DNA of 46,127 nt from Lachnospiraceae bacterium (lineage in GTDB: Bacteria > Bacillota > Clostridia > Lachnospirales > Lachnospiraceae), in the NCBI GenBank assembly GCA_017544285.1, contig JAFYEL010000119.1, positions 1-46,127 on the forward strand, written 5' to 3'. Both the position numbers and the translations under genes were made by a program. The notes beneath the pieces are model-generated. The model made no database searches. It was given only the letters and a program-made list of their open reading frames with translations, and had not been told where the DNA came from. Below are positions 6,898-30,115 of the stretch, one piece after another. Numbering within the stretch: position 1 is the stretch's first letter; the number at the start of each line of letters is the position of its first letter.

Positions 6898-9800
6898 TTA
6901 CTTATTCAGCGCACTTCTGTAATCATAGGAAGAGATCCAGGTTCCGGTAAAATTCCCTTTCGGCTTTGCATTCACTGTCAGAACGCCGTAAAGACTCTCT
7001 CTCACCAGTGTGTATTCCACCTCTTTCTTGGTAAGCTTGATCTTTACAGTCTTACCGTTTATGGTTCCCTCCCAGAAGAGGGACTTAAGCTTATCCTTTG
7101 AGGGCTTGCACAGAATCCGTCCGGAAAGGCCCGCCCTGGACTGACTGAGATCCAGCATCATTATATCAAAGCGCACGTTGTTCTGCTTGCGCTTGAAATA
7201 CTTGTTCAGCGCCTTGATCTGCGCCTTCTCCTGCTTTGACAGGAGAGCTCCCTTCTTTGCCTTTATCACGGGTATCATCACCGGCTTTTTCTTAAGGCCC
7301 TCCCGCTCTTTTCCGTAGATGTCGGCGCTGGCCTTTTTGCCGTTCTTCACCTTAAGGCTCTTTACATAGAACTTTTCGGAGCCGTTACCGCTGATGGTAA
7401 AGCGCAGGTCCGCAGAACCCTTCTTAGATCCCGTGAGGGTGTGATTCTTTGCGGTATAGAATACATAGGGACTGTAGGAAACGCTGTACCTGAAACCGTT
7501 TATGTCCTCGGTCACAAAACTCCTGTCATTATCCGCAAGATTCCTGGATGTGATATAGTCGGTCTCATCCTTTTCCAGGGTCTTCATATCAATAGCCGTC
7601 ACGGTGATCGGATCGCCGCCTAGGCTTTCCGCTGCGGTCAGAAAGACCTTGCCCTCATACGGTGCCGCAGAGTTTATCGCCGTCAGGCCGTGAGAGAATC
7701 TCTTTGTCAAAGGTTTTAACTCAAGGCTGCTCCAGGATGCAAGGCTGATATCGGCGTGAACCTTTTTTTTGCTGTCATACAGAGAAGAGAATACCAGTAT
7801 TCCCTCTTCGACTCCCGCGCAGTCCATATCCCCATGCTTAAGTCCCTCGGGCACGAAGTTCTCGCTCACCACCTTTGGAACACCGGTTCCCGTGGATATA
7901 TTTACCTTTTCAACGGTATTATCATCCTCGCCGCATACCACAAAGATATCATTTGAGCCGTCTTTTACAAGTTTGCCGTTCTTGTGCTCTCCCTTGAGAT
8001 TGTATTCTTTCGCCGCATAAAATACCTCGTGAAGCTCATGTGTGACAAGGTCCTCTACATCCTTAAGTCCAAGGCAGACAAGCCGTCCCGGCTTTCCATC
8101 GGTGTTGAAAAGGCCGTAGATATCGCCACCTACATTCACCATGTCGACGAGTTTTCCTTCTTCCAAATACAGTGGTATGTAGCCTGCCTCGCAGTCTTCT
8201 CCCTCAAGAGGATCGATCACCCCGATATATCCGTCTATATTGTAGATTATATAATCCCTCCATATAGCCGTGGGAAATGCCAAACCATCGGCTTGCATCT
8301 CCAGATCGCTGTCCTCGATCCTCCAGGACTGTTTATCTCCGGGAAGCCAGGATACCAGTTCCGCCTTACGGCCTTCCCGGTCCTGTTCCATGAAATACAT
8401 CCTGCCGTTATAAGCCGCAAGAGGCGCCGCCGCATTATATATCTCACCGGGTGTATTGAGGATACTTTCCCTTTCTGCAAGATCATCCAGCCCCCTGTCT
8501 ATATCAAAGAAGTTCCTTCCGTCTCCGGCAGAACTTATCACCCTTACCTCAGCTTCCCCGTCTAAGCAAGCCTCGGGAAGTTCTGCCCGTATCAGCCTGT
8601 CACTCCAGCCCAGGATCTGTGCCGTTGCTCCGTCCACCTTCAGGCTGCCCTTGGTATCTCCGAAGAAGAATCCTCCGATCTCTGCCTCTCCGGCTGCATT
8701 TACCGACAGTGAGAGGGGGACCGGTGTATAAACAGCCCTCTCCATGAGACGGTTGCCATCGACGATACCTTCTGTCACACAGTAATCCTTCGCTGCATCG
8801 GTTTTCCTCACCGATGCCCTTACGGAAGCAGCCCTCAGCTTGGCCGCACCTTCGGGAGTTTTTTCAGCTGCCTCCGCAGTCGAAAAGGTCATGGCCGCCC
8901 GGGCCAGCAAACCGGTCACAACGGGAGTTGCCATTGACGTACCGCTCAGATAATAATAGGGCAAGGCCTCACTTGTAAAGGTTACATCATCCAGAAGCAG
9001 AGAACAGGTTCCGGTTTTGTCAGCCTTGCTGTATCCCACCAGGGAAAAATCAATATCAAGCTTTGAATAATCCGTATTTTCCGGCAGTTCCAGGTTGAAC
9101 GAATCCCATACTTTATCGGCACTTTTCACGTACTGGAGCTTTTTCCCGTCTTTATTTGGAATGCTGACATTGATGACGCACATGCCCTCCTTATCCTCGA
9201 TATCGAGCCTGGCAAAAAACGTCAGATATTTGGGCTTACTGCCATTGAGGGTGTTACCCATCTTCAGCTTCGCATCAACCTTTTTTTCGCCGTCCCGATG
9301 GATGCCCTTTACCTCGAGAGCATGAGTGTTCGTCCCCTGAGGTCCCACGGTCTCGACTATGGCGGTTTCCGCCCCCGTCAGATTTATACGCCCCGAATTC
9401 TTAAGGTTATCGGGTTCGGTCTCATAGTCATCTGCCGCATCACTGTCGTCAGTCTTTTTCGCCGGGGTGCTTATGCCGGCCAGGGGATATTCCTGTCCGA
9501 CAGGCATAGTGGAAAGGATCGCGGTCCCCGGTGCGAAAACATGGGTGTTTCTTTCCCCGTAGTTTGAATATGAACTCATCTCTCCCGTTGCTTCCGCCGA
9601 GTCCACTACGATAACTCCCGGATTCTGTCTGGTTCCGGATTGGTTCATCAACTTCACGTCACTGTCTTTGCTTTCGTTACCTGAGGCTATAGCCGTGCAT
9701 ACCCCGTTCTTTGTCAGCTCATCCTTAAGGATATCGGCAGCATGATCCAAACCATAACCGTTGAAGGAGCAATTGATGGCAACCAGATTTACGCCTGCCT

Positions 9801-11019
9801 TTTTCGCTTCAAGCAAGTACGAGAATCCGGCCACCATATTCATGGTACCCCCTCTTCCCTCCGCGTCTAATGCCTTTATCGCCATGACCCTCGCGCCGTT
9901 GGCCACGCCGCTGATGCCGGCACCATCCCACTTTGCGGCTATTATTCCGGCGCAGTGAGTACCGTGTAAATGATCGTCCTTCGGATCAGCGATCCGGGCA
10001 ATGTACTCTTCCTCTTCCTCCTTATTTCTGTACTGCTCGTCCTCCTCGACAGTGTATTCATAATAAGCGGTGTATGCAACTGCGTTGTATCCGTATTTAC
10101 CGCCACCCAGTTTTTTCAGGGCGGGATATTTTTCACCGTCCGTCCACATAACATCCTTAAGATCCGGATGATCGTAGTCGACTCCCGTATCCATGACGGC
10201 TACAACAACCTTTTCGTCGGGATCGAACTCAGCTTCATTCCATCCCGGAATCCTTGCTCCATACATTCCTGCCATATACTGGCGGGCGGTCATATCAGGG
10301 ACAGCCTTTTCTTCCCCGTCATTTTCTTCCTCACCGGAAGGTATATCCTGCGCAGGCTCTTCCTCATCAGTTGCTGCCACGCTCTCATCTCCCGTTGCAT
10401 CCATCGCCTCTTCCTCGGTCACTTCTTCCTCGGTCACTTCTTCAAAGAAAGGATCCTCCTCGGAATCTATACTGTATATATAGTTCGGCTGGCAGAAGAC
10501 TACCTCGCTTTTTTCATTGAGAGCGTCTATGATCTCCGCGGTGGAATGGCCTTTGGCCTTTGCATAGCAGAGCACCGTTTCCTCTTCTTCGGACCCGCCT
10601 GTGGCTCCTTCCATATCACCGTAATCCGCAAAGGCGTCGCTGACATCCGCGATCTCCACGGAGCTGTCCAGCACGCGGTCCCACTCATCCCGGCCGCCTG
10701 TGGGCAGTTCGCCTTCATATTTGCGCAGACATACTATGACTTCACCCTCTGTATACTCTGCGTCCTTCGTAAGCTCCGCTCCGGACTTCTTTTCAAAGAA
10801 TGCTCCCGTATCTGCAGCTCCGGCAGGCTCTGAACCCTGGATCGTCTTCTTTCCGAGGTTTGCTACCCGGGGATCGCCCGGCTTTATCAGACTCTCCTCA
10901 AAGCTCACGAAATCCACCCCAAACTCCCCGGCCGGCTGCGCGGCCATCACGGATGAGGTTGAAATGGTCTCGAGTGCCATAACGAGAGCCAGTAATACGG
11001 ATAATCTTCTACGCTTCAT
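6898..11019 (-). CDS. Very large secreted S8 subtilisin-like serine protease
   Basis: 1373 residues. A signal peptide (residues 1-26, ending VMAA) precedes a long propeptide and a very acidic linker around residues 190-245 with a repeated EVTEE unit. The S8 triad is intact: D277 in AVMDTGVDYDH, H352 in HGTHCAGIIAAK, and S695 in LSGTSMATP. About 170 residues are inserted between FAPGTAILST and YYLSGTSM; they look like a beta-sandwich (LTFFARLDI, LLLDDVTF). After the protease come an IPT-like region (about 765-835), a repetitive propeller-like region, and a Lys-rich C-terminus without an LPXTG anchor. AGGAGG precedes the ATG. The start overlaps the upstream polymerase-like gene by 11 bases, so it is the last gene of the exopolysaccharide operon. 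It may process surface proteins; the substrate is unknown. Confidence 0.93.
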   Translation of the reverse strand: MKRRRLSVLLALVMALETISTSSVMAAQPAGEFGVDFVSFEESLIKPGDPRVANLGKKTIQGSEPAGAADTGAFFEKKSGAELTKDAEYTEGEVIVCLRKYEGELPTGGRDEWDRVLDSSVEIADVSDAFADYGDMEGATGGSEEEETVLCYAKAKGHSTAEIIDALNEKSEVVFCQPNYIYSIDSEEDPFFEEVTEEEVTEEEAMDATGDESVAATDEEEPAQDIPSGEEENDGEEKAVPDMTARQYMAGMYGARIPGWNEAEFDPDEKVVVAVMDTGVDYDHPDLKDVMWTDGEKYPALKKLGGGKYGYNAVAYTAYYEYTVEEDEQYRNKEEEEEYIARIADPKDDHLHGTHCAGIIAAKWDGAGISGVANGARVMAIKALDAEGRGGTMNMVAGFSYLLEAKKAGVNLVAINCSFNGYGLDHAADILKDELTKNGVCTAIASGNESKDSDVKLMNQSGTRQNPGVIVVDSAEATGEMSSYSNYGERNTHVFAPGTAILSTMPVGQEYPLAGISTPAKKTDDSDAADDYETEPDNLKNSGRINLTGAETAIVETVGPQGTNTHALEVKGIHRDGEKKVDAKLKMGNTLNGSKPKYLTFFARLDIEDKEGMCVINVSIPNKDGKKLQYVKSADKVWDSFNLELPENTDYSKLDIDFSLVGYSKADKTGTCSLLLDDVTFTSEALPYYYLSGTSMATPVVTGLLARAAMTFSTAEAAEKTPEGAAKLRAASVRASVRKTDAAKDYCVTEGIVDGNRLMERAVYTPVPLSLSVNAAGEAEIGGFFFGDTKGSLKVDGATAQILGWSDRLIRAELPEACLDGEAEVRVISSAGDGRNFFDIDRGLDDLAERESILNTPGEIYNAAAPLAAYNGRMYFMEQDREGRKAELVSWLPGDKQSWRIEDSDLEMQADGLAFPTAIWRDYIIYNIDGYIGVIDPLEGEDCEAGYIPLYLEEGKLVDMVNVGGDIYGLFNTDGKPGRLVCLGLKDVEDLVTHELHEVFYAAKEYNLKGEHKNGKLVKDGSNDIFVVCGEDDNTVEKVNISTGTGVPKVVSENFVPEGLKHGDMDCAGVEEGILVFSSLYDSKKKVHADISLASWSSLELKPLTKRFSHGLTAINSAAPYEGKVFLTAAESLGGDPITVTAIDMKTLEKDETDYITSRNLADNDRSFVTEDINGFRYSVSYSPYVFYTAKNHTLTGSKKGSADLRFTISGNGSEKFYVKSLKVKNGKKASADIYGKEREGLKKKPVMIPVIKAKKGALLSKQEKAQIKALNKYFKRKQNNVRFDIMMLDLSQSRAGLSGRILCKPSKDKLKSLFWEGTINGKTVKIKLTKKEVEYTLVRESLYGVLTVNAKPKGNFTGTWISSYDYRSALNK

Positions 11020-20445: not shown

Positions 20446-20473
20446 CAAAAAAGGAGCCGCTTTTGCGACTCCT
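20446..20473 (-). terminator. Terminator of the peptide export operon
   Basis: Leftward AGGAGTCGC, loop AAAA, GCGGCTCCT (nine pairs, one G-U), then six T. It begins ten bases after the stop codon of the small precursor gene. Confidence 0.9.
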
Positions 20474-20482
20474 CTTTAATGA

Positions 20483-20725
20483 TCAATAGATAGGCTGATC
20501 AAAGTTAGGCTTGTTGCCTGCACCCTCGAACTTATGTCCCTTTGCGCACTCCCAGGTTCCGTTGCTCTTCTTCCTGGTACGAACGTTCATATCACCGTTG
20601 GTCATGCACTTAAGGCACTTAGGGCCATCGTACTTCTTATCCTTGTCCTTCTTTTTCTTTCCGCCGGTAACATCATCGATCTCGTCTTCGCCTAAGGGGG
20701 TAAGATCCTTTACTTCTTCTGACAT
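20483..20725 (-). CDS. Double-glycine precursor peptide with Cys/His-rich core
   Basis: 80 residues. The first 22 form a textbook double-glycine leader: acidic, with LTPLGEDEIDDVTGG ending in Gly21-Gly22, the site cut by C39 peptidases. The remaining 58 residues start with a lysine run (KKKKDKDKKY) and contain C37, C40, C60 and H64, a CX2C-X19-CX3H spacing like a small zinc ribbon, and end in FDQPIY. The core has no hydrophobic segment, unlike pore-forming class II bacteriocins, and no Ser/Thr-rich lanthipeptide pattern. AAGGAGA precedes the ATG. It lies 36 bases after the second ABC transporter gene and is the last gene before a strong terminator. It is probably exported and matured by the C39 transporter; its activity (bacteriocin, signal or metal binding) is unknown. 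Confidence 0.82.
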   Translation of the reverse strand: MSEEVKDLTPLGEDEIDDVTGGKKKKDKDKKYDGPKCLKCMTNGDMNVRTRKKSNGTWECAKGHKFEGAGNKPNFDQPIY

Positions 20726-20761
20726 AATATTCTTCTCCTTTCAATCCTTTGATCTGCGGGA

Positions 20762-22974
20762 TCAGGCGATCTGTCGTTTTACAAGTTCTGCAAAGAATCC
20801 GTTCTTTTGCATCAGTTCCTCGTAAGTACCATCCTCGACGATCTTTCCACCCTGCATTACAACTATTCTATCACAGTTTTTTATGGTTGACAACCTGTGA
20901 GCTATAACTATCCTTGTACACTTAAGCCGGTCAAGGGATTCCGACACCTTTTTCTGGGTGATGTTATCCAATGCACTGGTGGCCTCATCGAACATAAGTA
21001 TGCGGGGTTTGGGGGCGATTGCCCTGGCGATCATGAGCCTCTGCTTCTGTCCGCCGGATATTCCTCCCTGGCCCTCGGAGATCAGGGTGTGCATTCCCAT
21101 GGGCATGTGCCTTATATCATCTGCCATGCCTGCCATCTCCGCTGCCTCCCAGGCGTCCTCCAGCGAAAGCATGGGTGCGGAAATGACGATATTTGAATAG
21201 ATGTCGCCGGCAAAGAGCTTTCCGCCCTGGGTCACCACTCCTATCTTCTGTCTGACTGAGCGCACGTCCAGGGTCCTCAGATCCCTGCCGTCATAGTAGA
21301 CCGAGCCTCTGATGGGCTGTTCGAATCCCAGCAGCAGCTTCATGAGAGTGGACTTGCCGCAGCCCGTCTCTCCCACCACCGCAACATACTGGCCGGCGGT
21401 TATCTTCAGTGACAGGTCGTCAAGCACCTTGGGGCCGTTCTCCGTATAGGAGAAGGTGACGTTGTTGAGCTCCACGGCTCCGGAGAGACGCTCCACCGGA
21501 GGACGCTCCTCATCCACCTCTCGCTCGGAGTCGAGTATGGGCCTTGCCATCTCGAACACGGGTCTTATATTTGCTATGGTGACCGCTATTCCCGCCAGCG
21601 CTCCGAAGGCGGAGTTCACCATGCCGTAGGCGGTGTTGAAAGCGTAGTATTCGTCGGGATCGATATTGTTCTTAACCGCAAAGAAATACATTGCCATGGT
21701 TCCGATAAGTCCTATGGCCATGGACAGGGTACCGTTTATCTTTACGAAGGTAGGGGGATCGAATTCCAGCTCCGCCTTTTTCCTGTACAGCTCGCCCCAT
21801 CTGGTGAAGGCCCTCTTCTCGGCACCCGTGGTCTTTATCTTTCTGACGCCGGATATGAGGGCGTAGGTCATACCGCTCTCCTTTGCCTCCAGAGCCAGCT
21901 TTTCCCTGGAGATCCTGAGATTGACGCTCACCGTCAGCACGGTCAGGCAGAGGGAGGCCAAAACGGTCAACAGAGCAGGCCCTAAAGGGAGGGTGCGTAT
22001 GTGACGATCTGTCTCACATAGATCAGCGAGAATACGGAGCTGAAGCCCATGGAGAAGACTCCGTCCACCAGCATCTCCATCAGGGAGCTGACATTTTCCA
22101 GCCTGACCGCAAGTTCACCGGAGCTGTACCTGGTGAAAAACGAGGGCGGCAGGGACAAAAGTCTGATCATGGAAGCTGCGGAGACCGACTGTTCCAGTTT
22201 GATCTCAACTCTCTTCAGGATCAGGTTTGAAAAAGCCTCGTACAGTATCTTTCCTATGATGAGACTCACCATGTATACCGACACAAAGAGGAGCAGTGCC
22301 TCCGCAAAGCCCGCTGTCTCCGCGTTCTTAATAAAGCGGCTGCCGGATTCCGCCACCGCGGAGATCATCTGCGCATAGATGTCTACGGAGCGCAGGCCTA
22401 TGGTAGTGGCTATGAACATGAAGATGAAGTAGCATACCAGGTCACGCTTTTCCACATTTTCGATCATAAAGGAAGCAAGGCAGGAAATACCCTTTTTATC
22501 CCTGGGGAAGGGCTTGTAGAATACCATCGCATCCTCCAGGATAGCCTTCTCGTTCTTCTTTTTAACGGAAATCCACTTGCCCAGCCTGGGATCAAAATAC
22601 TTATACCCGTAAACGGTCTTTGGTATCAGGGCGATAAAATCACCACTCTCCCTAAGCTGTGCGAACATGGGGCCCGATGCCTTTTTGCTCCAGCCTGCGG
22701 TAAGCCTCACGTTACGGCTCATTATGCCGTGGGGACGAAGCTCAAAGCTCAGGATCTCGTCTACTTCCGTCATGGATGAGGGGATATCCCTGCCCTTTAC
22801 GTGGTAATAGCGCAGGATCTCTCCCAGGGCACTCTGGGCCTGGATCCTCTTGTCCTCGGTGACCCTCAGTCCGCCCTTTCCCATGACCGACTCGGCGATA
22901 TTCCGGAGGGTCTCCTCCAGCTCCGCCTCGTCCATCCTTTTTCTGTCTTTTATCTGTTCCTCGTACCAGCTCAT
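20762..22974 (-). pseudogene. NHLM-like ABC permease/ATPase, split by a -1 frameshift
   Basis: Two adjacent frames together make one ABC exporter of about 737 residues. The first (22974 to 21982) has a soluble N-terminal domain of about 165 residues followed by membrane segments, ending TYAPSL and a TAG. The second (to 20762) continues in the -1 frame as GPALLTVLASLCL and carries the rest of the membrane domain and the ATPase: Walker A GETGCGKST, signature ISGGQKQR, Walker B ILMFDEATSAL. The layout matches the permease/ATPase partner (second transporter) of NHLP-leader export systems. The shift lies in CTCCCTTTAGGG; one extra T there would restore the frame. It may be a real mutation, a sequencing error or recoding. 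Start chosen at the ATG at 22974, just after the upstream stop. Confidence 0.85.
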
Positions 22975-22981
22975 CTCAAAC

Positions 22982-25174
22982 CTACTCGTTGGTGACAAGT
23001 TCTTTATAGAACCCGCCTTCAGCCATCAGCTTTTCATGTGTTCCTCTCTGAACCACGTCGCCTCTGTCAAGGACGATTATCTCGTCGCAGTCCCTTATGG
23101 TGGAAAGTCTGTGGGCAATGATGATCAGGGTTATTCCCCTGTCCCTTACGGCCTTCATCACCTTTGCCTCCGTTATGGCGTCAAGGGCACTGGTGGCCTC
23201 GTCCATTATCAGTATTGTGGGATCCTGGGCAAGGACTCTTGCGATCTCCATTCTCTGCCTCTGCCCGCCGGAAAGGTTGGTACCTCCCTCGGCCAGCATG
23301 TGCTTGTAACCGCCGTCTCTCCTCATTATGTCCTCATGGACGGAGGCATCCCTGGCGGCCAGCACCGCCTCGAAATTCTCTATGGTCCTGTCCCACATCT
23401 TTATGTTGTTTTCAATGGTGTCCTCGAACATGATGATCTCCTGGTCCACCATTGCAACGGAGCTGGTAAACACTCCGTGGTCTATCTCAGAAACCTTTTT
23501 GCCGTCGAAGAGTATCTCGCCGCTCCAGGGGGCGTACAGGCCGGTAACAAGGTTTGCGATGGTACTCTTTCCGCAGCCCGAAGAGCCAACCAGGGCCACG
23601 CTCTGCCCCCGCTTCAATTCAAGGGAAAAATCCTTGATAAGGGGATCCGCATACTTTGCGTATCCGAAGGTTATATTGTTGATGGATAGATTTCCGGACA
23701 GCTTTTCACTACACTTTTCACCCGCTTCGTCATCAATGTCCGTTTCGATTATGGCGGGATCGTCGGGATACTCCATCACATCCTCGATCCTTTCGATCTG
23801 GGTCTTCAGCTCCTGGATCTCCTGGATCACGTCCACTATCTCTCCCGCGGGTCTCATGAACTGCCTTGTAAGCCCCTGGAAGGCCAGCAGCATACCCGCA
23901 GTGAAAAGACCGTTCATCATGAGCCACACGCTGAGGATGATGACAGCCGCGTCCACTCCCTCGGATACCAGCACGGGAACCATTCCGAAGTAGGCGTCCT
24001 GCCTTGCCATGCGCACGTTCTGGACATTGAGTGCAGCCTGATACCCCGACCAGCGCTTGAAAAAGCCATCCTCCGCACCGCTGGCCTTGATGGTATCCAT
24101 CATCTCTATACCGGATACCGTGGCGGCCTCAAGAACACCCTCGTCCCTCATCAGTACTCTGGTGATATTGATACGCTTTTTTGCAATTAATCCGGCTATA
24201 GCCGTATTGAGAAGGATGCCCCCAACGCTGATGAACATAAGCTTTGTTGAATACCTTGACATTACCACCAGATAGAAGATGGCAACCGAAAGGTTCAAAA
24301 ACAGAGGAGCTATTGAATTCATGAGCTTCGTAGCTATGTTGGCGTGAAGCTGCTGCCTCATATGGATATCACCCGCAAGGCGCTGGGAGAAAAATCTCAT
24401 GGGAAGATGAAGCACCTTCCAGAGGAAGGAACAGCTTCCGTACGCCTCGATACGCCCGCGGATCCTGAGCATGTTTACATCCCTTATGCCGTTGCTGAAG
24501 ATCTGGGTGAGCACCAGAATTGATGCCAGCACAAAGAAGGAGTCGGCGTATCTGATATTCTTTTCCGTCAAAAGTTCGTCCATGAAGAATCTGGTGCAAC
24601 CGTTGATCAGGATCTCTGCCAGGGAAAGGGTGACAGACACCAGGAGTACGAAAATGATGGCCTGGGTCATACCCCTCATGGACTTTATGATATAGGCAAT
24701 GACACTCTTCTCCTGCTTTTTGGGCTCGAATTCTTCGGTGGGCTCAAAAAACATGCATACCCCCGAGTATGCATCGTCAAATTCATCAATGGGCATGCAG
24801 ACCTCGCCCCTTGCGGGGTCGTTTATATAAGCGTTGCCTTTTTTGAAGCCGTCCAGAACTACAAAGTGATCGAATTCCCAGTGGATGATGCAGGGGAATG
24901 TGCCGTGCTCCTTAAGACCCTCCGTATCAAGGCGGTAGGCGTTGGCGGTCATTTTGTGGCCCCTGGCCGCCCGGAGGATACTCTTTGCACTGGAGCCGTC
25001 CCTTGAGATGCCGCAGTCCTCCCTGAGCTGCTCAAGGGTGATCCATCTGCCGTAATAGGCCATGACCATGGCCAGACTTGCGGCGCCGCACTCCAGAGCC
25101 TCAAGCTGGATGACTACCGGAACCTTTGCCACGCTTCCGTTCTTTTTGGCTTTTTTTATCTTATTCTTCGACAT
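22982..25174 (-). CDS. C39 peptidase-ABC exporter (NHLM peptidase/permease/ATPase type)
   Basis: 730 residues. Residues 1-150 are a peptidase C39 domain with catalytic Cys in QLEALECGAASLAMVM, His in WEFDHFVVLDGF and Asp in INDPARG; it removes double-glycine leaders during export. Six membrane segments follow (about 165-450). The ATPase domain has Walker A VGSSGCGKSTIAN, signature NLSGGQRQRMEI, Walker B ILIMDEATSALD and the switch His in IIAHRLST. The real start is the ATG at 25174, within the end of the upstream mini-anchor gene (14-base overlap), not the longer open frame. Together with the partner transporter and the terminal GG peptide it forms the core of the export system. Confidence 0.93.
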   Translation of the reverse strand: MSKNKIKKAKKNGSVAKVPVVIQLEALECGAASLAMVMAYYGRWITLEQLREDCGISRDGSSAKSILRAARGHKMTANAYRLDTEGLKEHGTFPCIIHWEFDHFVVLDGFKKGNAYINDPARGEVCMPIDEFDDAYSGVCMFFEPTEEFEPKKQEKSVIAYIIKSMRGMTQAIIFVLLVSVTLSLAEILINGCTRFFMDELLTEKNIRYADSFFVLASILVLTQIFSNGIRDVNMLRIRGRIEAYGSCSFLWKVLHLPMRFFSQRLAGDIHMRQQLHANIATKLMNSIAPLFLNLSVAIFYLVVMSRYSTKLMFISVGGILLNTAIAGLIAKKRINITRVLMRDEGVLEAATVSGIEMMDTIKASGAEDGFFKRWSGYQAALNVQNVRMARQDAYFGMVPVLVSEGVDAAVIILSVWLMMNGLFTAGMLLAFQGLTRQFMRPAGEIVDVIQEIQELKTQIERIEDVMEYPDDPAIIETDIDDEAGEKCSEKLSGNLSINNITFGYAKYADPLIKDFSLELKRGQSVALVGSSGCGKSTIANLVTGLYAPWSGEILFDGKKVSEIDHGVFTSSVAMVDQEIIMFEDTIENNIKMWDRTIENFEAVLAARDASVHEDIMRRDGGYKHMLAEGGTNLSGGQRQRMEIARVLAQDPTILIMDEATSALDAITEAKVMKAVRDRGITLIIIAHRLSTIRDCDEIIVLDRGDVVQRGTHEKLMAEGGFYKELVTNE

Positions 25175-25388
25175 CCTCGAAATACTCACTGAAGGCACCG
25201 GTTTCCAGGTAATCGTCGTACATTTCCAGACTACTGTAGAACATGTAGAATATGCCGCCAAGCAGCAGCACCAGTGTGGCGATCACCACCAGAATGTTCT
25301 CCGGCTCGGTAATATGTATGTAATCGTCAAGCCTTTCATGGCTTGTCATCATTTCTTCGTTTTTCCGGTTTATAGCGGGTTCGCTCAT
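25161..25388 (-). CDS. Miniature HlyD-like membrane anchor (B)
   Basis: 75 residues. The sequence ERLDDYIHITEPENIL followed by one membrane segment (about residues 34-53) matches the N-terminal end of NHLP-system HlyD-type secretion proteins, which open with a LDxxxxVTSPxxW-like stretch before their single membrane helix. The long extracellular coiled-coil and beta-barrel part is missing. Instead there is a short acidic tail (YDDYLETG, FSEYFEDVEE) predicted outside. AGGAGG lies directly upstream. It is related to the 58-residue protein encoded just before it and overlaps the C39 transporter gene by 14 bases. Its likely role is a small subunit of the export complex; this is inferred from position and the shared motif. 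Confidence 0.75.
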   Translation of the reverse strand: MSEPAINRKNEEMMTSHERLDDYIHITEPENILVVIATLVLLLGGIFYMFYSSLEMYDDYLETGAFSEYFEDVEE

Positions 25389-25400
25389 ACCCCTCCTCCT

Positions 25401-25577
25401 TTAGTTTGTCACGTAGGTGATGGGGACTACCACTTGCATCTGACCGCCTCTGTTAAGCTCCAGCTCGGTCTGAGTGCTCCACACAAGCACTCCTATCATC
25501 ATGGAGAGCATGATGATGAGTGCGATCCACACCTTGGGGGTTGTAACTGAGATGTACTTATCAAGTCTTTCTTCCAT
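25401..25577 (-). CDS. Miniature HlyD-like membrane anchor (A)
   Basis: 58 residues. MEERLDKYISVTTPKVW is followed by a membrane helix (about residues 17-34), then only about 24 residues on the far side (STQTELELNRGGQMQVVV...). This is the start of an HlyD/NHLP secretion protein without its extracellular domain. It shares ERLDxYIxxTxP and a following helix with the protein encoded at 25161-25388, so the two look like a diverged duplication. GAGGT lies seven bases before the ATG; twelve bases separate its stop from the next start. It is not a truncated pseudogene by obvious signs: the ribosome site, the clean stop and the tight spacing to both neighbours argue for a real gene. Confidence 0.75.
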   Translation of the reverse strand: MEERLDKYISVTTPKVWIALIIMLSMMIGVLVWSTQTELELNRGGQMQVVVPITYVTN

Positions 25578-25615: not shown

Positions 25616-26833
25616 TCATTCCTCTGCCATAAACTCATTGTAGGAGGTCTCGTCATAGGGCACAATGATCTCGTTTGACACTATCCTGCCCCTGACCTCC
25701 ATGGCGTCGTCGTAGATCTCATCGGAATAGTTGGGATGCTCGGGAGGTATCTCCAGGGCGTGCTCCGCCAGACCGTACTCCAGTTCCTTTCCTCCGATGT
25801 TATCCCTCATGCCGTACTGAACCGAAATATTTGCCAGTATGACATCCACTCTCTTAACCACCGAGGTCAGCACGTTATCCGGCGCCAAATAGGACTGGTC
25901 GCAGTCCACGCCGATAACGAATTTATTGTTGTTCTTTGCCGAATCGATAACGCCCTCTCCGGCGCCTCCCGCCGCGTGGAAGATCACATCGCAGCCGCCG
26001 GCATACATGGAATCCGCGGTAGTCATTCCCTTGTAGGAATCCTCAAAGGAACCTATGTAATCCGTGACCACTTCCGTCTTTGTGCCGCACTCTCTGTCCG
26101 CAAGGGCAACACCGCCCATGTAACCGTACTGGAAGGCCCTGAGAGTATCAACATCCATACCTCCCACAAAGCCCACCTTGCCGGTCTTTGAAACCCTGGC
26201 GGCTATATAACCTGCCAGAAACGAAGGCTCCTGTGCCCTGAAGAGCGCACAGGTGACATTTTCCGGTATATCATCATAGGCATAGTCCACTATTCCGTAA
26301 TGGGTATCGGGGTGGCTCTTTGCTGCCGCCAGCACGGCGTCCGCAAACTTGTAACCCACTCCCCAGCAGATCTCGTTGCCCGCTGCCGTCAGCATATCCA
26401 GATCGCGCTCAAACTCGGCCTCGCTTCCGGCCTCTATGTAGCTGACCCTGGCGCCCACGTTAAGGTTCAGGAATTTCATACCTTCCCAAGCGGACTGGTT
26501 AAAGGACTGATCATTGATCCCCGCCACATCGCTCACCATGCCGGTCTTTAAAATGGCATCGTCGTCTCCCAGGGTAAAGATCTCGTTAATAGGGTCTTCT
26601 TCCCCCGAAGCTTCGCTTCCGGCCGCTGCTTTATCCTCCGGTTTGTCTTCGGGTGCCTGCTGTTTTTCGGCATCCTTCGCGATATCCTTTTCCTCCGTTC
26701 CGGCCTCCTGCGTTTTTACGGCTCCCTGATCACCGGAAGCCTCCTTTGCGCCGCAGCCCGAAACCAATGCCAAAGACAGGATCGCCACAGCCGGCAACGC
26801 CGTCAGCTTCCGCATTTTACTTACACTAAACAC
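25616..26833 (-). CDS. BMP/PnrA-family substrate-binding lipoprotein
   Basis: 405 residues. A lipoprotein signal peptide ends at LALVSGC (Cys27), followed by a low-complexity acidic linker of about 60 residues and a periplasmic-binding-protein fold of the basic membrane protein (BMP/PnrA/Med) family: KTGMVSDVAGINDQSFNQ, SHPDTHYGIVDYA, FLAGYIAARVSKTGKVGFVGG and VIGVDCDQSY. Family members bind purine nucleosides for an ABC importer. No such importer is in this window. The start is taken as GTG at 26833 because AAGGAG lies nine bases before it; the ATG six codons later has no ribosome site. It lies 38 bases before the mini-anchor gene, hence in the export operon. Confidence 0.9.
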   Translation of the reverse strand: MFSVSKMRKLTALPAVAILSLALVSGCGAKEASGDQGAVKTQEAGTEEKDIAKDAEKQQAPEDKPEDKAAAGSEASGEEDPINEIFTLGDDDAILKTGMVSDVAGINDQSFNQSAWEGMKFLNLNVGARVSYIEAGSEAEFERDLDMLTAAGNEICWGVGYKFADAVLAAAKSHPDTHYGIVDYAYDDIPENVTCALFRAQEPSFLAGYIAARVSKTGKVGFVGGMDVDTLRAFQYGYMGGVALADRECGTKTEVVTDYIGSFEDSYKGMTTADSMYAGGCDVIFHAAGGAGEGVIDSAKNNNKFVIGVDCDQSYLAPDNVLTSVVKRVDVILANISVQYGMRDNIGGKELEYGLAEHALEIPPEHPNYSDEIYDDAMEVRGRIVSNEIIVPYDETSYNEFMAEE

Positions 26834-27547: not shown

Positions 27548-28324
27548 TTACAAAGCCCCTATTTTAAAAAAGTCATCGAGCTTCTTTAATAGCCCTGCCT
27601 TGTCTATGGTCTTAAGAAGGTAATCCACGGGAGAAAGCCCCACCACGGAGAGCACGCTCTCACGATCACCGTGTCCCGTCAGAAACATGACGGGGATCTG
27701 TCCCGTATCCGTATCGTTTTTCAGCATCTCCAACACCTGGGGGCCGTTAGCCACCGGCATATCGTAATCCAGCAGCACCAGATCAGCCTTGTTCCTTGCA
27801 AGAAAGCTTATGGCCTGGACACCGTTTGCCGCCATTCCCACATGGTAGCTGTCCTTGAGCCACTCGTAAACCGTTCTCATGTAGGTGATGTCATCGTCCA
27901 CTATGAGCACTGTCTTTTTGCGGTTCTCACCGGTATTTGAATCCATGTATTTCCTGATGCACTTTATGAGTTCATCCATCACCAGGGGCCGTTTGAACCA
28001 CCGGAGCACCAGAGTGTCGCTGACGGTCTTTTTGACCTGATCATACTCCGTGGCATCCCCTATGAGTATGAACCTGCGATCCCTGTCATTGGCCATATCC
28101 TTAAGATAGACAAGGGTCTCCGTCATCTCTTCGCTGATCTCTCCCATGAAGTATATGATGAGCTCAACAGCGTCCTTCATCTCGTCTATTTCTTTTATAT
28201 CACCGGTTGTGAACCTTGCCTGAAGCCCCATGGAATCAAGCTTTGTCACCAGACTCTTTGCCAGAAAACTCTCGGTGCCGCTCACAACCAGGATCAGGTT
28301 CTGCTGTGTTTCGTTGTTTTCCAT
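27548..28324 (-). CDS. Two-domain receiver protein (pseudo-REC plus REC)
   Basis: 258 residues. The N-terminal 120 residues have a receiver-like fold (NLILVVSGTESFLAKSLV) but the phosphorylation Asp is not where it belongs (ELIIYFMGE), so this half should be inactive as an acceptor. The C-terminal receiver (from about residue 137) is intact: KTVLIVDDDITYMR, phosphoacceptor D186 in VLLDYDMP, and the Thr and Lys in FLTGHGD and YLLKTIDK. There is no output domain. Start at 28324 is chosen for AAGGAGA upstream; the open frame continues 17 codons further. It is ten bases after the HD-GYP gene and probably works with it. Confidence 0.88.
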   Translation of the reverse strand: MENNETQQNLILVVSGTESFLAKSLVTKLDSMGLQARFTTGDIKEIDEMKDAVELIIYFMGEISEEMTETLVYLKDMANDRDRRFILIGDATEYDQVKKTVSDTLVLRWFKRPLVMDELIKCIRKYMDSNTGENRKKTVLIVDDDITYMRTVYEWLKDSYHVGMAANGVQAISFLARNKADLVLLDYDMPVANGPQVLEMLKNDTDTGQIPVMFLTGHGDRESVLSVVGLSPVDYLLKTIDKAGLLKKLDDFFKIGAL

Positions 28325-28334
28325 TTTGTTCTCC

Positions 28335-30083
28335 TTATGCTTCGCCTGCCGCCCTTGCGACTCCGTCCCAGTCAAGGCTCATAAGCCGCTTCTCGATCTC
28401 TTCCACTCTTTTCTTATCCTCCGGTGAAAGACGATAAATCTTAAGCTGCTTCAAAACCTCCTCCATCATGGAAAAATCCATACTCTGTGCGATCTCCGCC
28501 ACGGACTGAAATGCCTCGGCCCTCATCTTGGGGGAGAGTTCCTTTAAGTTGTCCCCATCACTTTCGATGACGGAAAGGTTTCGGTCCAGCTCACGGTATT
28601 TTTCCAGAAGGTCTCCGGTCTTTTGATCTATGGTCTCGCGGTCGCCCTCCTTGCCTGCCAGCTCCAGCTGTCTGGCCATGGCCGAGAGCTCATCGGCACC
28701 TATGATGCGGGCGGAGCTCTTCAGGGCGTGAACCTTGATGGTGTAGTTTCCGATGTCACCCTTTTTGAAAAACTCCTCTATCTCGTCAGCCTTCATGGCA
28801 GCGGTCTTTTTAAAGGTCGAAAGCACTGCCATATAGCTGTCGGGGGATCCGCAGTTCATCACGCCGTTCCGGACGTCGATGCCGGGAATGTCGGAAATGC
28901 TCTCCATAAGCTCCGCCGGTATCTCGGCCCTGGGAACCTCCTCCTGTTTTGCCATGGGCTCGTAGGCATCCCAAAGCTCACTGCGGCATTTCCAGACTCC
29001 AAGACCTGCCTTTTCGTTCATGACAAAATCCCGGTCCTCATCTATCATATCCAGCATCACGGCTGCTGCCACGGGGTCGAAATGGGTGCCGCTGCAGCGG
29101 GCGATCTCTGCCCTTACATCTGCCTGAGGTCTGGGTTCGGAATAGGTCCTGGTACTGGTCATGGCGTCGTAGCAGTCGGCCACAGCTATTATCCTTGCAA
29201 CCTCGGGGATATCCTCCCCTGCCAGGCCGTCGGGATAACCGCTGCCGTCATAGCGCTCGTGATGGCTCCTGGCGCCCTTTGCCAGTATGGGCATATCCAC
29301 TATGCCCCTGAGTATCTCGTATCCCTTGACGGTGTGCTCCTTGATCTCGCCGAACTCATCGCGGGTAAGCTTTGAGGTCTTGCTGATTATGTCCTCGGAG
29401 ATACCGATCTTGCCGATGTCGTGAAGCAGCCCCACTTCGTAGAGGGTTATCTGTTCATCGGCGCTCTTTCCCATGCGCCTTCCGATCTCGGCGCTGTATG
29501 TGGCCACCCTCTCGGAGTGACCGTTTGTATAGTGGTCCTTTGCATCCACCGTATGGGACAGGGCCTCCATCATCTCTCTGGTGAGGCGCTTGGCCTTTAC
29601 GGTCTGCCGCCTTATCTCCTTTTGCAGGTCCTTCTGGAACCTGTCCAGGGTGATGATGCGCCTGCTCCTCTCGATGAGTATCTCGGGTGAGAAGGGCTTC
29701 CTTATAAAATCCAGAGCTCCGTTTTTAAGTCCCTGGACTTCCTTTTCCCTGTCTTCGTCGGCAGTGATGAACATGACCGGGATATCCCGGGTTTCCCGCT
29801 CTTCCTTTAACGCGCGGAGCACCTCGAACCCGTCCATGTCATCCATATTGATATCGAGAAGGATGAGATCCGGCTTTTCGGCGGCGGCGATCCCCGTGGC
29901 CTCGCTTCCCCTCAGGGTGGCGATCACCTTAAATGATTCGGCCAGGACAGCCCCGGCGGCGGTGCATATGACCTCGTCGTCATCCACCACAAGTATGCAG
30001 GCATCGGGAGCACCCGACAGCCCGGGTATCATATTTTCGGCAGCCATGCCGGCAATCTGAGTTTTTGATCCGGTTTGATGCAT
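28335..30083 (-). CDS. Response regulator: REC, HD-GYP and HPt domains
   Basis: 582 residues. Residues about 28-145 are a receiver with the acidic pair in CILVVDDDEV, phosphoacceptor D77 in LILLDINM and a conserved Lys in IRKPFSP. An HD-GYP phosphodiesterase domain follows (about 180-340): HDIGKIGISEDI, then the HHERYDGSGYPDGL signature, expected to degrade cyclic di-GMP. Near residues 420-510 a histidine phosphotransfer domain shows IKVHALKSSARIIGADELS with its phosphoryl His. This combination could receive phosphate from a kinase and pass it on. The ATG at 30083 has GAGGTG before it. It is the first gene of the long leftward operon. Confidence 0.92.
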   Translation of the reverse strand: MHQTGSKTQIAGMAAENMIPGLSGAPDACILVVDDDEVICTAAGAVLAESFKVIATLRGSEATGIAAAEKPDLILLDINMDDMDGFEVLRALKEERETRDIPVMFITADEDREKEVQGLKNGALDFIRKPFSPEILIERSRRIITLDRFQKDLQKEIRRQTVKAKRLTREMMEALSHTVDAKDHYTNGHSERVATYSAEIGRRMGKSADEQITLYEVGLLHDIGKIGISEDIISKTSKLTRDEFGEIKEHTVKGYEILRGIVDMPILAKGARSHHERYDGSGYPDGLAGEDIPEVARIIAVADCYDAMTSTRTYSEPRPQADVRAEIARCSGTHFDPVAAAVMLDMIDEDRDFVMNEKAGLGVWKCRSELWDAYEPMAKQEEVPRAEIPAELMESISDIPGIDVRNGVMNCGSPDSYMAVLSTFKKTAAMKADEIEEFFKKGDIGNYTIKVHALKSSARIIGADELSAMARQLELAGKEGDRETIDQKTGDLLEKYRELDRNLSVIESDGDNLKELSPKMRAEAFQSVAEIAQSMDFSMMEEVLKQLKIYRLSPEDKKRVEEIEKRLMSLDWDGVARAAGEA

Positions 30084-30115
30084 TGTGTCACCTCTGAGTC
30101 TTCGCACTATGTAAT

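Follow-up and report, generated by a model that had tools for sequence, protein, structure and literature searches.

What is exported by a bacterial peptide exporter that has neither a modifying enzyme nor a full-size adaptor beside it, and is such an exporter a system of its own? The question is raised by a cassette on contig JAFYEL010000119.1 of a Lachnospiraceae bacterium (assembly GCA_017544285.1), a stretch of 46,127 nucleotides that was analysed at its full length and is called the window here. Between positions 20446 and 25577, wholly on the minus strand, the cassette encodes two small membrane proteins, two ATP-binding cassette (ABC) transporter subunits and an 80-residue double-glycine precursor. 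A first interpretation made from the letters alone (the sequence-only reading) had proposed that this arrangement may define a distinct small export system. Judged by family profiles, it belongs instead to the NHLP/Nif11 export family, as a reduced branch, and is not a separate system. The whole explanation that we favour, with a probability of about 0.55, is that this reduced cassette exports a short-leader peptide whose zinc-bound core acts on neighbouring cells.

The two transporters give the family assignment. Haft and colleagues proposed a three-gene export cluster (TIGR03794, TIGR03796 and TIGR03797; PMC2887384, available to us in excerpt, like the other papers cited below), and the cassette resembles it in having a C39 peptidase-ABC subunit and a second ABC subunit of these families, together with a double-glycine cargo. 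ABC1 (22982..25261) combines C39 peptidase, membrane and ATPase domains (PF03412, E=2.5e-33; PF00664; PF00005) and scores 858.1 bits against TIGR03796, over the cut-off of 853.3; its likely ATG lies near 25174, overlapping the 3' end of the gene upstream. ABC2 is of the TIGR03797 type, and the description of the locus as a compact NHLM-like exporter is borne out. The second transporter is present as described, but it lies in two frames, which the sequence-only reading had missed. The N-terminal piece (21982..22998) matches TIGR03797 positions 30-276 with 119.4 bits, and the C-terminal piece, which follows the frameshift and holds the ATPase motifs (20762..21970), matches positions 285-686 with 543.4 bits, the cut-off being 709.4. 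In an alignment spanning residues 1-735 of the intact 740-amino-acid (aa) homologue from the cultured Lachnospiraceae bacterium MA2020, the pieces cover residues 1-329 and 330-735, and so abut at 329/330. As far as this alignment goes, window ABC2 is split by one frameshift, either an assembly error or a real lesion; the window genome (G000; G, C and L numbers are our handles for genomes, contigs and loci) is a draft metagenome-assembled genome, 84% complete in 146 contigs. The Walker A, signature and Walker B motifs are intact in both ABCs. A programmed frameshift was considered and rejected, no canonical slippery site being seen on inspection by eye.

The small membrane proteins had been described as mini membrane anchors in a cassette without a full-size HlyD adaptor. 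No such adaptor is there, and both proteins (58 and 75 aa) are indeed small, with one hydrophobic segment each; by alignment, they are shortened HlyD. Stub 1 (25401..25577), which consists of a short cytosolic part, a transmembrane segment and the tail PITYVTN, matches positions 6-41 of 421 in TIGR03794 (E=3e-5; 23.1 bits against a cut-off of 156.2) and has a stub family in other genomes. Stub 2 (25161..25388) begins with the same N-terminal motif and has lost the tail; it gives no match to TIGR03794 or, above chance level, to any other family, aligns with stub 1, and matches at E=5.4e-32 a five-stub profile in which it is itself one of the rows. Among relatives, a stub matches TIGR03794 over positions 1-46 (E=1.8e-8), a mid-sized form over positions 1-50 (E=1.8e-9), and a 302-aa protein in the equivalent place of another genome passes the cut-off. 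HlyD in the examined Lachnospiraceae loci is full (267-628 aa), mid (117-223), stub (58-103) or absent. Of 45 HlyD-like proteins, 38 show the N-terminal part by a simple pattern search and 32 an APISFVLN-like tail, and the full-length HlyDs of G122 and G259 carry a comparable stretch, PITMLIP or PVDLLIP, close to their C-termini; thus it is the middle of HlyD that is missing in most short forms. Over 15 pairs of six 74-codon stubs, the ratio of nonsynonymous to synonymous changes (pN/pS) is 0.20-0.34, and the genes are therefore under purifying selection rather than debris. The five-stub profile matches 42 of the 397 genomes of the family, and TIGR03796 at E<=1e-170 marks 40 as exporter-bearing, a lower bound like all our exporter counts as two candidates were scored per genome; 38 genomes are common to both lists. 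In G002 (C52, L064:9141-9362) there is also an orphan HlyD stub, whose flanking genes in G003 (L020) enclose a stub and an exporter; the ABC pair is seemingly missing.

A tree places this size series among 52 related exporters, chosen through HlyD and TIGR03796 searches and not as a random sample. HlyD is full in 7, mid in 28, a stub in 14 and absent in 3, this last figure not being a tally of all HlyD-less exporters, given the rows left out of the trees (L095, L136, L137, L144 and L147-L150, most without HlyD found or with no class given, and L069, L082, L083, L088 and L139, with ABC1 short or absent). In a second ABC1 tree of 48 rows, from which L024, L143, L094 and the second L096 copy were dropped as long or odd, the full-HlyD rows form one side (support 100/99), and a group of 13 (95/95) is made up of ten stub rows and three without HlyD. 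The window ABC1 joins those of L022 (G002), L023 (G003) and L110 (MA2020) at 100/100, and with a Shimodaira-Hasegawa approximate likelihood-ratio support of 99 in the 52-row tree. All three relatives are without HlyD beside the exporter, and no stub is found elsewhere in the MA2020 genome (best E 0.35). The other stubs are scattered among mid forms, with starred branches forcing at least three changes of the stub label, which has therefore changed several times. The size series on the ABC1 tree supports the view of the cassette as a reduced NHLP/Nif11 branch, which is part of the favoured explanation.

The cargo gene (20483..20725) encodes an 80-residue double-glycine precursor, as had been noted, with a 22-residue leader (20660..20725) and a 58-residue core (20486..20659). 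The leader carries L(-12), E(-8), I(-7), V(-4) and GG, and thus fits the consensus L(-12), E(-8), L(-7), GG described for substrates of C39 peptidase-containing ABC transporters (PCATs; PMC6363468, PMC6959990). The core has a basic N-terminus followed by C37-x2-C40 and C60-x3-H64, two ligand pairs that are invariant in the window, G002 and MA2020 orthologues; pN/pS is 0.27-0.47 in the three pairs. By ligand pattern, the cargo would be a zinc-ribbon-like peptide of the C3H kind (three cysteines and one histidine). RlmA, a cytosolic rRNA methyltransferase, likewise has a C3H zinc site, and the RlmA-type ribbon PF21302 matches weakly over the C-x3-H-x-F part of the cargo (E=0.093), whereas spacing and size differ. 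The structure model has a mean predicted local distance difference test score of 62, and fold searches gave weak matches; a PDB sequence search with the cargo profile returned five chance-level hits (best E 0.26). The claim that the cargo is unlike a class II bacteriocin stands, with no match to Pfam bacteriocin families (class II families such as PF10439) up to E=10. NCBIfam at E<=1 gives no match to the precursor leader families TIGR03793 and TIGR03798, the sole match being to a CTB family bacteriocin (E=0.11), below cut-off. The PCAT1 cavity has been estimated at about 15,000 cubic angstroms and its cargo at about 9,000 (PMC6959990), so that a core of 6.7 kDa, the mass of this one, would fit. 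The cassette has the C39 domain, leader consensus and cargo size in common with PCAT1 and LahT (PMC6959990, PMC6363468), and differs from them in its second, peptidase-free ABC subunit, which would pair with ABC1 as a heterodimer.

Orthologues of this cargo were found in three genomes. A first scan of genome contigs used two short patterns over 28 stretches and gave two relatives, a scan that cannot show absence elsewhere; a two-row profile (window and G002) gave a good match in 2 of the 397 family genomes. The cargo stands beside ABC1 and ABC2 in two of the three, downstream in the window and upstream in MA2020, where its gene directly precedes ABC1 and the intact ABC2, amid genes for a sodium:alanine symporter, a pyridoxal phosphate enzyme and type I restriction, with no HlyD. 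In G002 it follows a gene for a BMP-type lipoprotein; no exporter lies in the 20 kb viewed, and a same-clade exporter sits at the separate locus L022. A cargo lying apart from its exporter is also described for the NHLP/Nif11 cluster (PMC2887384). Cargo and window exporter clade occur in one genome in three of four cases; the fourth is G003, where no orthologue of the cargo was found and two other double-glycine peptides with paired cysteines are present (L105, L178). Carriage on mobile elements was considered and dropped: among 102 pattern matches in viral contigs none is a relative, and there was no plasmid match.

The cargo seems to have company. A DNA pattern for the leader gave 11 matches in four genomes of the genus, against 4 with a backward control pattern. 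Four were kept (frames of 68-80 aa with GG within 22 residues of the start), and three matches in long genes, two in no frame and two in frames judged unlikely (160 aa in G000 C93; 80 aa with GG at residue 43 in G000 C19) were set aside. All four kept precursors have paired cysteines, and zinc-ribbon models match two peptides of the genus, L100 and L105, at 0.002, short of the cut-off. A profile of four peptides found further precursors in other genera among 30 exporter-bearing genomes. A 16-row profile matches 187 of the 397 family genomes at E<=0.01; in the list, most matches take in the ribbon part alone. Counted as precursors were matches spanning leader and ribbon and then read as precursors, plus G098 (whose match ends at profile position 42); G126, G298, G384 and G244 (internal stops) and G391 and G364 (long frames) were dropped, and the exporter-negative genomes opened were G153 and G126 only. 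Among the matches listed, which reach to about E=0.0024, 15 of 40 exporter genomes have precursors, against 1 of the 357 others (G153). Without the ten exporter genomes that supplied profile rows the contrast is 5/30 against 1/357, again among the matches listed (Fisher p=1.1e-5).

From 18 stretches, 42 double-glycine frames were read, of which 33 with two ligand pairs were kept and 9 dropped; with 12 collected earlier they make 45. That 43 of the 45 have two ligand pairs is largely by construction, the 12 others giving ten passes and two failures (G098, G179). L(-12) and L/I(-7) are present in all 45, V/A/I(-4) in 44 and E/D(-8) in 19, again partly by construction since the collection used a leader regular expression. 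G270 alone has 19 precursors with Nif11-type leaders (L209-L214), several in tandem; over 171 pairs, identity is 0.78 in the leader, 0.28 in the core and 0.19 in the core without its five conserved cysteine columns. Its genome has one C39 domain, as does G000. One G270 precursor matches PF08271 (1.2e-4), TIGR02605 (2.6e-4) and Nif11 models, all below cut-off, and one from G015 passes TIGR03798 (41.9 against a cut-off of 32.3). The G270 and G015 paralogue arrays, with their Nif11-type leaders, conserved leader and variable core, thus resemble Nif11-leader precursors (TIGR03798) of ribosomally synthesized and post-translationally modified peptides; the differences are that the cores are ribbon-like and that the window cargo, with its short leader, gives no match to TIGR03798. 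Hypervariable cores within one genome are again reported for the NHLP/Nif11 cluster (PMC2887384). We suggest tentatively, at less than even odds, that Lachnospiraceae export a whole class of zinc-ribbon double-glycine peptides, in which zinc would replace enzymatic cross-links and a fixed metal scaffold would carry hypervariable loops, while the exporter would have dropped its adaptor stepwise, to a stub and then to nothing.

The absence of a modifying enzyme, also claimed at the outset, is true locally: none was found among the 20 other window proteins (Pfam E<=1e-5; one is without any match, and smaller frames were not scanned), nor among the ten MA2020 locus proteins scanned, two of them being the ABCs. 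The claim does not extend to all relatives, some of which carry radical S-adenosylmethionine (SAM) enzymes, and several observations here weigh against the explanation that we favour. In G015 (L225:2912-5863), a radical-SAM/SPASM gene lies directly upstream of four double-glycine paired-cysteine precursors, and relatives of this enzyme lie near the exporters of G268, G270, G279, G175 and G242. An extra cysteine within the first five core residues is found in 24 of 25 Nif11-leader members against 1 of 20 short-leader ones, and Nif11-leader peptides beside radical-SAM/SPASM genes may well be modified. With Nif11-leader members near such genes, the statement that there is no enzyme therefore holds for the short-leader group only, the kind to which the window and MA2020 cargos belong, both without the extra cysteine. 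G153, which is 99% complete, has three precursors (L215-L217), and a search at E<=1e-6 gave no C39 domain there; such domains do occur in other genomes too (13 of 42 in a chosen set). At stub or HlyD-less loci, radical-SAM-motif proteins occur in 1 of 17 (L021, three genes), several of these loci being cut by contig ends and this motif being the sole enzyme class scanned there.

What the sequences themselves show is the family of the exporter, the shortened HlyD, the leader, the paired ligands, the recurrent linkage and the co-occurrence; from there, a model of the reduced cassette can be proposed by following the family and the leader. The C39 domain would hold the leader and cleave after Gly22, and the ABC1/ABC2 pair would release the 58-residue core. 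HlyD would have been reduced to a short-tailed membrane anchor, and lost altogether in the sister exporters, because Lachnospiraceae are single-membrane bacteria in which there is no outer-membrane channel to be met. Outside the cell, C37, C40, C60 and H64 of the core are its probable zinc ligands, around which it would fold as a small zinc ribbon, and the metal would supply the rigidity that modifying enzymes give to other cargos of this exporter family. As its most likely use, and this is the weakest step, the secreted peptide may act on neighbouring cells, in a bacteriocin-like or signalling role.

Could the window copy simply be a decaying NHLP cluster, its ABC2 frameshifted, its HlyD eroded and its enzyme lost? 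The frameshift and the missing tail of stub 2 would agree with this, and the G002 orphan stub, where G003 has stub and exporter, indicates that such loci do break up. However, the frameshift is the sole lesion seen, the ATPase motifs are intact in both ABCs, pN/pS is low in cargo and stubs alike, and MA2020 repeats the enzyme-free arrangement with an intact ABC2, so that decay seems unlikely. Nor do homologous loci always include a full HlyD and an enzyme, the finding that the sequence-only reading had named as fatal to its proposal: the 52-exporter tally, the six stubs under purifying selection and the MA2020 set without HlyD or recognised enzyme all show otherwise. We also find it improbable that the cargo is an ordinary modified peptide whose enzyme, for example a radical-SAM protein, is encoded in trans. 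The G015 gene, its relatives near five other exporters and the three radical-SAM-motif genes of the stub-type locus L021 point in that direction, but no such enzyme is among the scanned window or MA2020 locus proteins (loci only, with no genome-wide search in G000 or MA2020), and the extra core cysteine of radical-SAM-linked peptides is mostly missing in short-leader ones.

Two further explanations deal with the peptide itself. Its zinc-ligand-like core, and the gene for a surface lipoprotein that adjoins cargo or operon in two of three loci, would suit a secreted zinc chelator or carrier that serves metal uptake and might be passed on to the BMP lipoprotein. This has little probability in our view: no BMP gene lies in the 20 kb around the MA2020 cargo, BMP/PnrA proteins are known as nucleoside binders, and the hypervariable G270 cores fit an arms race better than a single metal-binding role. 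A cytosolic zinc-ribbon protein with a double-glycine by chance is also very improbable, even though ordinary zinc ribbons are common and many 16-row profile matches cover the ribbon part alone, since the leader positions fit the C39 consensus, two different arrangements place the gene next to a C39 exporter, and precursors and exporters are associated across genomes (5/30 against 1/357).

Set against the NHLP/Nif11 cluster, the reduced cassette differs in its HlyD, which is a stub or absent, and in the zinc-ribbon-like core of its cargo. Precursors in species without identified modifying enzymes were noted by Haft and colleagues (PMC2887384, in the part available), so a missing enzyme is no novelty by itself; what is new here is the reduced HlyD and the ribbon-like cargo. 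Among the papers listed by literature searches, which covered few subscription journals, none on zinc-ribbon double-glycine peptides or shortened HlyD was found. The terms "zinc ribbon" and "double-glycine" are both present in PMC9200625, treated separately in the portion available, and the main text of the Hungate1000 bacteriocin paper (PMC13289728), likewise in its available portion, names neither MA2020, HlyD nor zinc. If the favoured explanation is true, metal-folded peptides join the cargos of NHLP/Nif11 exporters, which have mostly been regarded as machinery for enzyme-modified peptides, and exporters without an adjoining enzyme would become easier to explain. The HlyD size series offers a natural deletion set for the role of the adaptor in a cell without an outer membrane, and the intact minimal set of the cultured MA2020 makes these claims directly testable.

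In transcription order, the unit reads BMP lipoprotein, stub 1, stub 2, ABC1, ABC2, precursor and terminator. The BMP/PnrA-like lipoprotein (25616..26833, minus strand; 405 aa; PF02608, E=7.1e-73) is encoded upstream of stub 1 with a gap of 38 nucleotides, and its gene is probably the first of the same transcription unit. A 54% orthologue (L013:8889-10085) is encoded directly upstream of the G002 cargo gene, so that a BMP gene stands ahead of the cargo or of its operon in two genomes whose loci otherwise have little in common. The lipoprotein was nevertheless rejected as a general cargo partner, as it adjoins cargo or operon in two of three loci and is not near the MA2020 cargo; no double-glycine gene adjoins the BMP gene of G002 C37 or that of G003 C40 in the 3.9 kb viewed of each contig. 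At the other end, the strong terminator that had been described is confirmed as an intrinsic terminator (20448..20477, minus strand) with a 13-bp hairpin of -19.3 kcal/mol, as stable as which none of 200 shuffles was; a simple scan over the whole region found no terminator enrichment (7 against 6.5 in shuffles). Upstream of the unit (27548-30107), two response regulators are encoded, one of them containing HD and Hpt domains, and response-regulator-like proteins, judged by eye, are also found near the exporters of L021, L062 and L065. Farther off, at 6898-11019, the window encodes a 1373-aa protein with a subtilase (S8) domain (PF00082, E=5.7e-34) beside polysaccharide genes.

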